This document shows, in pieces, positions 34,471 to 36,982 of a stretch of DNA of 64,000 nt. The position numbers and the translations under genes are program-made. The DNA is from Candidatus Acidiferrum typicum. GTDB taxonomy: Bacteria > Acidobacteriota > Terriglobia > Acidiferrales > UBA7541. The first letter of the stretch is position 1. Every line of letters starts with the position of its first letter. The notes under the pieces were generated by a model that saw only the letters and a list, made by a program, of their open reading frames with translations, searched no databases and was not told the origin of the DNA. The stretch lies in the NCBI GenBank assembly GCA_025463055.1, contig JAOAPV010000070.1:1-64000 (forward strand), in the 5' to 3' direction.

Positions 34471-34499
34471 TTGCAGTCTTAGCTGCACAGCGCTAGACT
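34471..34499 (+). promoter_or_regulatory. moaA leader promoter
   Basis: TTGCAG (34471-34476), exactly 17 bases, then TAGACT (34494-34499). Predicted start near 34506, immediately before the structured leader. Confidence 0.6.
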
Positions 34500-34507
34500 A
34501 AGCACGA

Positions 34508-34656
34508 AACTCCGACCCTTGGCGCCTACGGGGAGACAACCTATGGCGGCACGGGCGAAGTCCTGGCGATGTTGCCGGGAATGAGGGTTTGGCTGGAAAC
34601 GGCTGGGCCTCCCGCTTGGAAAGGAGCTGACGACGGAAAAGTGTACTTTTTTCGTC
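34508..34656 (+). promoter_or_regulatory. probable molybdenum-cofactor (Moco) riboswitch
   Basis: A leader directly upstream of moaA that folds into several helices: TCCG/CGGA (34511-34514 with 34634-34637), GGGAG/CTCCC (34531-34535 with 34609-34613), CCTGGC/GCCGGG (34562-34567 with 34574-34579), and GCTG-GAAA-CGGC (34592-34603, a GNRA tetraloop). The GGCCTCCCGC...GGAAAGGAG block resembles the Moco RNA motif as I remember it. A further hairpin (34632-34656) competes for the outer helix strand. The gene identity, tetraloop and terminator all fit a Moco-sensing switch; the exact aptamer class needs a covariance search. Confidence 0.7.
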
Positions 34657-34660
34657 CGCG

Positions 34661-34697
34661 CCTGAATCCAAGCATATGGATTCAGGTTTTTGTTTTT
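34661..34697 (+). terminator. intrinsic terminator in the moaA leader (riboswitch expression platform)
   Basis: CCTGAATCCA (34661-34670) pairs perfectly with TGGATTCAGG (34677-34686) around AGCATA, followed by TTTTTGTTTTT. It lies between the structured leader and the moaA start codon and so can stop transcription before moaA. Confidence 0.9.
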
Positions 34698-34738
34698 GTG
34701 GGTGGATGTTGGGCACGTTGACGCCCAAGAGAAATCTT

Positions 34739-35722
34739 ATGACGCTGCACGACAAATTCGGTCGCCAGATTACGGACCTGCGCATCTCGGTGACCGATCG
34801 CTGCAATTTCCGGTGCGTGTATTGCCGCTCCGCCGACCCGGAAAATTATCGCGATCATGACGAGATTCTTTCCTGGCCTGAACTGGACCGCTTGGCGGGA
34901 ATTTTCCTGGGCTTGGGCATAAGAAAGATTCGCATTACGGGTGGCGAGCCGCTGGTTCGCGAGGGCGTGGAAAATTACATTGCCCGGCTGCGCGCGCTGG
35001 GCGTCGAAGATTTATCGATGACCACGAATGGCCACTTGCTGGCGGAACGGTGCGAGCGGCTGATTCAAGCGGGATTGCGGCGGATAAATATCAGCCTGGA
35101 TTCGCTGGACCGCGCCAGATTTGAGAAAATCACCCGGACGAAATCGTTCGCAACGGTTTTGGGTAGTATCGATGCCGCGCAGAATTCCCGGCTAGCGCCG
35201 GTGAAGATTAACGCGGTGCTTGTCCGCGGCATCAATGATGATGAGGTGGAGGCGTTTGCGGAATTCGCGCGCGAGCGCGGCGTCATCATGCGATTCATTG
35301 AATATATGCCGCTGGATGCGGATCGCCACTGGCATCGGGGCTTGGTTGTGCCTGCCGCGGAGATATACAGCCGGATTCATGCGCGGTGGCCTCTGCAGCA
35401 AATTGCGCATGAGCGCAGCGAGACGGCGCGTAAGTACCGTTTTGCAGATGGCGCGCCGGGCGAAATTGGGCTGATTGCTCCGGTCACGCAGCCTTTTTGC
35501 GGGCATTGTTCGCGCATCCGGCTTACCGCAGATGGCAAGCTGCGCACCTGTCTATTCAGCAAGGAGGATCACGACCTGCGCGCGTTGCTGCGCGAAGGCG
35601 CCTCCGACGAAGATGTGATTATATATATACGTTCAGTAATCATGGAAAAAGAAGAGGGTCACCGCATCAATGAGCCGGATTTCGTACCACCCTCGCGTAC
35701 TATGGTGTTTATTGGCGGATAA
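34739..35722 (+). CDS. moaA: GTP 3',8-cyclase (molybdenum cofactor biosynthesis)
   Basis: A 327-residue radical-SAM enzyme that, with MoaC, turns GTP into cyclic pyranopterin monophosphate, the first step of Moco synthesis. The N-terminal cluster ligands are Cys22, Cys26 and Cys29 (CNFRCVYC); the C-terminal cluster ligands are Cys254, Cys257 and Cys271 (CGHCSRIRLTADGKLRTC). The C-terminal GG is present. The ATG at 34739 was chosen since the frame upstream runs through the terminator. No other moa/moe gene is in the window, so this is an isolated, probably riboswitch-controlled copy. Confidence 0.96.
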   Translation: MTLHDKFGRQITDLRISVTDRCNFRCVYCRSADPENYRDHDEILSWPELDRLAGIFLGLGIRKIRITGGEPLVREGVENYIARLRALGVEDLSMTTNGHLLAERCERLIQAGLRRINISLDSLDRARFEKITRTKSFATVLGSIDAAQNSRLAPVKINAVLVRGINDDEVEAFAEFARERGVIMRFIEYMPLDADRHWHRGLVVPAAEIYSRIHARWPLQQIAHERSETARKYRFADGAPGEIGLIAPVTQPFCGHCSRIRLTADGKLRTCLFSKEDHDLRALLREGASDEDVIIYIRSVIMEKEEGHRINEPDFVPPSRTMVFIGG

Positions 35723-35815: not shown

Positions 35816-36982
35816 ATGAGCACCCTTATCTCCATCTCGAATTCCTCTACATTAATCGGCAGCGAACCGCCAGAGACGGTGCGCGCACCGGAAATCGAAC
35901 CGGGCGTGGGCTGCGATTTCGATTCGTATTTGCTTGTGCCGGACAATTCGCTGGATGAGCGGATTGGCTCGGCGAAAGCGCGCCTCGGAACAGACGTGGT
36001 GGTGCTTGGGCATCACTATCAGCGCGACGAAGTCGTGAAATTCGCGGATTTTCGCGGGGACTCGTTGAAGCTTTCTTTTCAGGCCGCGGAAGCGGATGCG
36101 CGCTACATCGTTTTTTGCGGCGTGCATTTCATGGCGGAGAGTGCCGATATTCTCCGCCGCGCCCACCAAAGTGTGATCCTCCCAGATTTGAATGCCGGCT
36201 GTTCAATGGCTGATATGGCAGACATTGGCCAGGTGGAAGTTTGCTGGGAAGAGCTAGCCTCGGTCGGTGATCTGAAGCTTGTTCCCATCACCTACATGAA
36301 TTCTACGGCGGCTATCAAGTCTTTTACCGGCGAGCATGGCGGTTCTGTGTGCACTAGCTCGAATGCAGCGGCAGTGATGCGCTGGGCTTTTGAGCGTGGC
36401 GAGCGAGTCTTGTTTTTACCGGACGAGCACTTGGGCCGCAACACCGCCTTTCGCATGGGTATCCCGCTGGACGAAATGATTGTGTGGGATCCGTATCAGG
36501 ATTTCGGGGGGAATTCCTCGGAAGCGATTCGTAGGGCGCGGGTCATCTTATGGAAGGGCTACTGCTCAGTGCACCAGCGCTTCCAGCCGCAGCACATCGA
36601 GCGGGTTCGCCGCAACCATCCGGGTATTCGGGTAATCGTGCATCCTGAGTGCCGGTATGAAGTGGCGCAGGCTGCCGACGAGATCGGGTCGACGGAAGGA
36701 ATTATCAAGGCGATTTCGCAATCGCCGGCAGGTTCGGAGTGGGCCGTGGGTACGGAGATTCACCTGGTCAATCGGCTCAGCAAAGAAATGCCGGATCGCA
36801 AGATTATGTCTCTCGATCCAAGCGTTTGCGTATGCACCACGATGTTTCGCATCACCCCCCAGCATTTGCTGTGGGCGCTGGATAATCTGGCCGCAGGGAA
36901 CGTTGTTAATCCAATCTCCGTGGATGAGCGCACCCGCCACTTCGCGCGCATAGCCCTCGATCGCATGTTAAGCTTGCGCTAG
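35816..36982 (+). CDS. nadA: quinolinate synthase A
   Basis: Condenses iminoaspartate with dihydroxyacetone phosphate to quinolinate in NAD biosynthesis, using a [4Fe-4S] cluster. The 388 residues fit the family. Landmarks are VVVLGHHYQRDEV, PDLNAGCSMADMA (Cys129), KGYCSVHQRF (Cys250), HPEC, GTEIHLV and DPSVCVCTTM (Cys338/Cys340). Three of these cysteines would hold the cluster. About 30 N-terminal residues precede the core. nadB and nadC are not in the window. Confidence 0.97.
   Translation: MSTLISISNSSTLIGSEPPETVRAPEIEPGVGCDFDSYLLVPDNSLDERIGSAKARLGTDVVVLGHHYQRDEVVKFADFRGDSLKLSFQAAEADARYIVFCGVHFMAESADILRRAHQSVILPDLNAGCSMADMADIGQVEVCWEELASVGDLKLVPITYMNSTAAIKSFTGEHGGSVCTSSNAAAVMRWAFERGERVLFLPDEHLGRNTAFRMGIPLDEMIVWDPYQDFGGNSSEAIRRARVILWKGYCSVHQRFQPQHIERVRRNHPGIRVIVHPECRYEVAQAADEIGSTEGIIKAISQSPAGSEWAVGTEIHLVNRLSKEMPDRKIMSLDPSVCVCTTMFRITPQHLLWALDNLAAGNVVNPISVDERTRHFARIALDRMLSLR

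Follow-up and report, generated by a model that had tools for sequence, protein, structure and literature searches.

The leader of moaA in the genome studied here combines a Moco riboswitch aptamer with an intrinsic terminator and a mutually exclusive antiterminator, the pairing of which is supported by covariation in relatives. This anatomy points to OFF logic by transcription termination, and we consider it highly probable that the leader is a Moco-sensing transcriptional OFF riboswitch of moaA; we infer ligand binding, the identity of the ligand, the direction of the response and the kinetics. A first-pass annotation had proposed a transcriptional off switch, which fits the anatomy and the covarying antiterminator, and only the identity that it gave to the competing element was partly wrong. 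Positions refer to the window, the whole 64,000-nucleotide stretch of DNA that was analysed, and are collected in Table 1.

Table 1. Coordinates of moaA and of the elements of its leader.
Feature	Position	Strand	Basis and remarks
Promoter: -35 TTGCAG 34471-34476, 17-base spacer, -10 TAGACT 34494-34499	34471..34499	+	Sequence; layout in relatives
Moco riboswitch aptamer	34498..34642	+	RF01055, full length, cmscan
P1 5' strand AACUCC	34508..34513	+	cmscan alignment; second A opposite C, a mismatch
P2, tetraloop-receptor region: halves CCUA 34525-34528 and UAUGG 34542-34546	34525..34546	+	cmscan alignment, sequence
P3 stem, 8 pairs, 4-base loop	34561..34580	+	Fold centroid
GAAA tetraloop of P4	34596..34599	+	cmscan alignment
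Antiterminator 5' arm GCUUGGA (P5 loop and P5 3' strand)	34614..34620	+	Nascent-RNA fold; covariation
P1 3' strand GGAGCU	34623..34628	+	cmscan alignment, fold; 34622-34627 shared with antiterminator (AGG-CCU, GC-GC)
Local hairpin at antiterminator tip (competing hairpin of the first-pass annotation)	34629..34656	+	Fold; relatives by eye
Antiterminator 3' arm: GC 34658-34659, CCU 34661-34663, UCCAAGC 34667-34673	34658..34673	+	Fold; covariation; overlaps terminator 5' arm and loop
Intrinsic terminator stem-loop, 11 pairs, loop of 6	34660..34687	+	Terminator scan; relatives
Terminator U-tract	34688..34697	+	Terminator scan
moaA, GTP 3',8-cyclase, 327 aa	34739..35722	+	TIGR02666, 379.4 bits, cut-off 284; PF04055, PF06463

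An RF01055 aptamer ahead of moaA

The first-pass annotation had named RF01055, the Moco RNA motif, as the class of the aptamer. When the covariance model of this family (Moco/Tuco riboswitch) was run with cmscan, it matched the leader over its full length (model positions 1-135 of 135) with 62.8 bits, against a gathering cut-off of 36 (E 1e-12). This is the single Rfam match in the window at curated thresholds, the source genome holds one RF01055 copy, and 96 bases lie between the end of the match and the start of moaA. The alignment covers all of the aptamer helices, P1 to P5, and retains the inner P1 pairing CUCC/GGAG; of the P1 pairs in the Rfam model, the outer three are non-standard in this sequence. 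Both receptor halves of P2 agree with the model, and the base after CCUA departs from CCUAAG, which we take to be the tetraloop-receptor half. The GAAA tetraloop claimed earlier was located at the end of P4, where members of the class carry a GNRA loop that is nearly always GAAA. Folding of the leader (34507-34705) gave a structure more stable than those of its shuffles (z -3.6; 1 of 200 shuffles equally good). The moaA leader carries a known RNA-sensor class, of which it is a well-built, ordinary example.

The same RNA class and mechanism could also serve Tuco, or a precursor or derivative of Moco, given that RF01055 spans sensors of both Moco and Tuco and that the ligand can be read from sequence with less than certainty; we regard this as unlikely. 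In the available part of PMC2408646, P3-bearing RNAs are tied to Moco and the absence of P3 to Tuco, and P3 is present in the moaA leader. Tuco-type RF01055 RNAs without P3 belong to the same family and some of them have terminators (PMC2408646, available part); unlike these, the moaA leader has P3 and stands in a genome in which a profile search for the tungsten-enzyme family AFOR (AFOR_C) gave no match. The same genome has eight MoCoBD_1 matches. The presence of P3 together with the lack of an AFOR_C match favours Moco over Tuco, and Moco is our best guess for the ligand.

Promoter, terminator and antiterminator

A scan with the E. coli consensus reported no promoter in the moaA leader, TTGCAG-17-TAGACT being too weak for that consensus, and we therefore used recurrence in relatives as the promoter evidence. 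Of 60 leaders, 49 had the layout of TTGC, 15-20 bases and TAnRMT ahead of the aptamer, compared with a mean of 0.18 and a maximum of 2 in 200 shuffles. When TTGn was allowed, the layout was found in 55 of the 60; the spacer measured 17 bases in 48 of those 55, and the -10 element ended 8-12 bases before the P1 core (L049 and L058 were left out of the count). The promoter that the first-pass annotation had picked out is present and belongs to this recurring layout. Since the layout recurs at the same place in relatives, the transcription start is expected near 34506-34507, at the aptamer's 5' edge.

The earlier reading of the terminator held as to its existence and its U-tract; the stem, described as a perfect 10 bp, comprises ten Watson-Crick pairs and one G-U pair and is followed by TTTTGTTTTT. 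A terminator scan of 601 bases returned two terminator-like sites, against 0.7 in shuffles. In the family UBA7541, a loose rule applied without a shuffled control found a terminator-like stem with a T-tract in 59 of 62 leaders; the stem that it reported for L028 and L050 is not the homologous one, and that of L059 has only 6 pairs. L003 and L004 are without a terminator, and L050 has lost the terminator 5' arm. A separate 6-pair hairpin, TTGGGC...GCCCAA, lies at 34709-34728, just upstream of the moaA start.

The helix that competes with these structures pairs 34614-34627, comprising the P5 loop and the 3' strands of P5 and P1, with 34658-34673 in the 5' arm and loop of the terminator. Because this antiterminator takes strands from the aptamer and from the terminator, it excludes both. 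In the predicted fold of the nascent RNA to 34677, GCUUGGA (34614-34620) lies on UCCAAGC (34667-34673), with AGG-CCU and GC-GC pairs inside and a hairpin at the tip (z -3.8; 0 of 200 shuffles equally good). At lengths from 34673 to 34685, sampled every 4 bases, the antiterminator was the minimum-energy fold with 7 of 7 pairs, and from length 34689 the minimum-energy fold was that of the terminator. At length 34705 without ligand, aptamer plus terminator came to -78.6, compared with -80.2 for the antiterminator and -85.2 for the minimum. P1 appeared in none of the minimum-energy folds, the energy models omitting ligand and pseudoknots. In such a model, which has no ligand term, the passage from antiterminator to terminator with growing length would be the order that a kinetic switch needs.

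The first-pass annotation had assigned the competing role to a hairpin at 34632-34656 that was thought to use the outer strand of the aptamer helix. The hairpin itself exists (about 34629-34656), and by eye the leaders of relatives have one at the same place. We rejected it as the competing element: it lies beyond the P1 3' strand (GGAG, 34623-34626) and does not reach the inner P1, and the Rfam pairs that it does overlap, the outer ones, are non-standard. The competing helix is the one formed by 34614-34627 with 34658-34673.

A free search for complementarity in single sequences was weak when set against shuffles, only 13 of 62 family leaders reaching P 0.05, so the case for the antiterminator rests on comparison and the single-sequence test was not used as support. 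We permuted the antiterminator arms between genomes and within genera, without a tree. Between genomes, 61 leaders (L050 left out) supplied 53 distinct arm pairs; of the 318 cells at their six variable positions, 222 were paired, against a permutation mean of 190.7 (sd 5.7), and 0 of 5,000 permutations were as high. Within genera the count was 227 of 324 against 200.4 (0 of 5,000), with 2 of 5,000 for g1 alone and 9 of 5,000 for g11 alone. Slid registers of the arms gave at most 143 of 318 paired cells, and register 0 was best in 44 of 53. The near-constant UUGGA/UCCAA part carried no permutation signal (234 of 265, mean 233.7). When nascent RNA was folded, 50 of 59 leaders were predicted to form four or more antiterminator pairs, compared with 109 of 1,180 with shuffled tails; the predicted fold of the other 9 of 59 was without the antiterminator (L050, L058 and L059 were left out).

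We propose that these elements would act as follows. RNA polymerase would start near 34507 and make the aptamer first. With Moco bound, P1 and P5 would be held shut, so that the strand 34614-34627 could not leave the aptamer; the terminator would then form, and transcription would stop at the U-tract before moaA. When Moco is scarce, this strand would leave P5 and P1 and pair with 34658-34673 once the latter had been transcribed. The antiterminator, with the hairpin at its tip, would hide the terminator 5' arm, and the polymerase would read into moaA.

The leader might instead be a relic in which aptamer and terminator persist, switching has ceased and termination is constitutive. Such a relic would sit well with the terminator-containing fold as the stable end state and with the four family genomes that carry a moaA ortholog but lack the motif, but we judge it very unlikely: the aptamer, the promoter, the terminator and the covarying antiterminator are all found again in other members of the family, and permanent termination would shut off the one moaA match of the genome that exceeds the family cut-off, among the matches listed. 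A leader that still switches remains our preferred reading.

Distribution and regulatory platform in the phylum

The RF01055 motif was found in 60 of 89 genomes of the family UBA7541 at E up to 0.001, as 62 copies; 58 genomes were over the Rfam cut-off, and the copies L061 and L062 fell below it. Fifty-nine of the 62 copies lie directly upstream of a moaA ortholog on the same strand (51 assigned by script, 8 read off), and the remaining three (L025, L036 and L057) run into contig ends. The motif was absent in 29 of the 89 genomes, and the moaA region was inspected in 20 of these 29. In G001 and G003 the contig ends within the leader and the terminator is still present. In G054, G062, G063 and G066 (L145-L148), moaA is 71-74% identical and the upstream region gave no motif in an Rfam search at E up to 1. 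In fourteen of the genomes without the motif by family scan, the moaA that was fetched is only 39-44% identical, and nine had no moaA match over the cut-off.

Across the phylum sample, the motif was present in 57 of 396 genomes (source genome included), 55 of them over the cut-off. The named assemblies with the closest moaA, at up to 92% identity, are labelled Acidobacteria, many of them gp2, and Candidatus Acidoferrales or Acidiferrum; one of this group is labelled Betaproteobacteria. One genome (G462:C291:508-935) has a pair of RF01055 matches separated by less than 200 bases, one on each strand, an arrangement that would suit the control of two divergent genes. The 122-base leaders L036 (G065) and L037 (G055) are identical and belong to two different genera, and G055 also has a second, different copy, L025; together these observations suggest contamination of a metagenome bin.

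As an outgroup we fetched 40 leaders, one per genome, from the 56 other genomes of the phylum with matches, and the anchor was found in 30. In 18 of these 30 anchored leaders from other families, a start codon that opens a frame of 50 codons or more follows the P1 GGAG by 7-19 bases, as expected for translational control. The same rule found a near start codon in 4 of 62 family leaders, in which moaA itself starts further down. The distance from the UUGGA anchor to the moaA start was 85-169 bases in the 51 family leaders measured, and in the leader studied here the moaA start lies 116 bases downstream of the first G of the P1 GGAG. The 18 outgroup leaders lend some plausibility to translational control here too, with the bound aptamer hiding the ribosome site and the terminator-like stem being incidental; yet both of these distances, and the stem with T-tract found by the loose rule in 59 of 62 family leaders, speak against it and leave it very improbable. 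The family UBA7541 seems, from these comparisons, to have moved to transcriptional control.

In the other families, two leaders (L174 and L179) were positive in the single-sequence antiterminator test, both among the 12 that lack a near start codon; none of the 18 with one was positive. We lean slightly towards a wider reading, in which the Moco riboswitch of UBA7541 would have swapped the translational platform, commoner in the other families sampled, for a transcriptional one. With an antiterminator that invades both P5 and P1, the P5 loop, which otherwise varies, would evolve as the address of the switch and covary with the terminator loop, and L174 and L179 look like an independent version in another family.

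In L174 (G199) and L179 (G432), a terminator-like stem seen by eye directly after the aptamer has a loop with a 10-base pairing to the aptamer strand CUCAGGAAAG. L003 (G052) and L004 (G053) retain the aptamer, and by eye a stretch rich in C and U ahead of moaA shows partial complementarity to the aptamer strand GGAAAGGAGAA. Control in these two may have shifted to translation; their complementarity was not significant against shuffles (P 0.08 and 0.315).

Known Moco RNAs and the surroundings of moaA

The Moco RNA of E. coli is a repressing, Moco-dependent switch (PMC2408646, available part). Our leader resembles that of the E. coli moaABCDE operon (RF01055; PMC2408646) in its aptamer family, P3, GAAA tetraloop, position upstream of moaA and expected OFF logic. 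In E. coli, P1 was proposed to cover the ribosome site of the five-gene operon (PMC2408646), and RNA-seq points to termination too (PMC12121620); unlike in E. coli, moaA here has no adjoining MoaC or MoaE gene and the platform consists of a terminator and an antiterminator. A terminator-like stem after the aptamer is shared with RF01055 copies that have intrinsic terminators, and since PMC2408646 reports terminators after some Moco RNAs, the type of platform is already known. The terms 'antiterminator' and 'acidobacter' have 0 occurrences each in the main text of PMC2408646, and Acidobacteria are not mentioned in the available parts of PMC3766115 and PMC9495176. The accessible portion of the open literature on the Moco riboswitch or RF01055 yielded no account of a Moco RNA in Acidobacteria.

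Knowledge of the RF01055 class itself is unchanged by the moaA leader, which adds to this riboswitch class a clean, testable pairing of terminator and antiterminator in a group known here chiefly from metagenome assemblies. The ligand of the Moco riboswitch is hard to handle. The strand that forms the antiterminator belongs to the aptamer core as well, so that simple mutants would serve for testing the readout of Moco binding.

The source genome has two MoaC matches (G000:C20:2145-2540 and G000:C36:17656-18057) and one MoaE match beside those to MoCoBD_1, and its MoaC and MoaE genes lie on other contigs or 142 kb from moaA. The genes downstream of moaA are a DUF2203 gene and a gene with a DUF255 thioredoxin domain, preceded in some relatives by nadA. 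In the window, nadA lies at 35816-36982, 93 bases after moaA, and may share the riboswitch-controlled transcript with moaA. Among 80 named loci (L063-L142), nadA stands beside moaA in 19, and the DUF2203 gene without nadA in 15.
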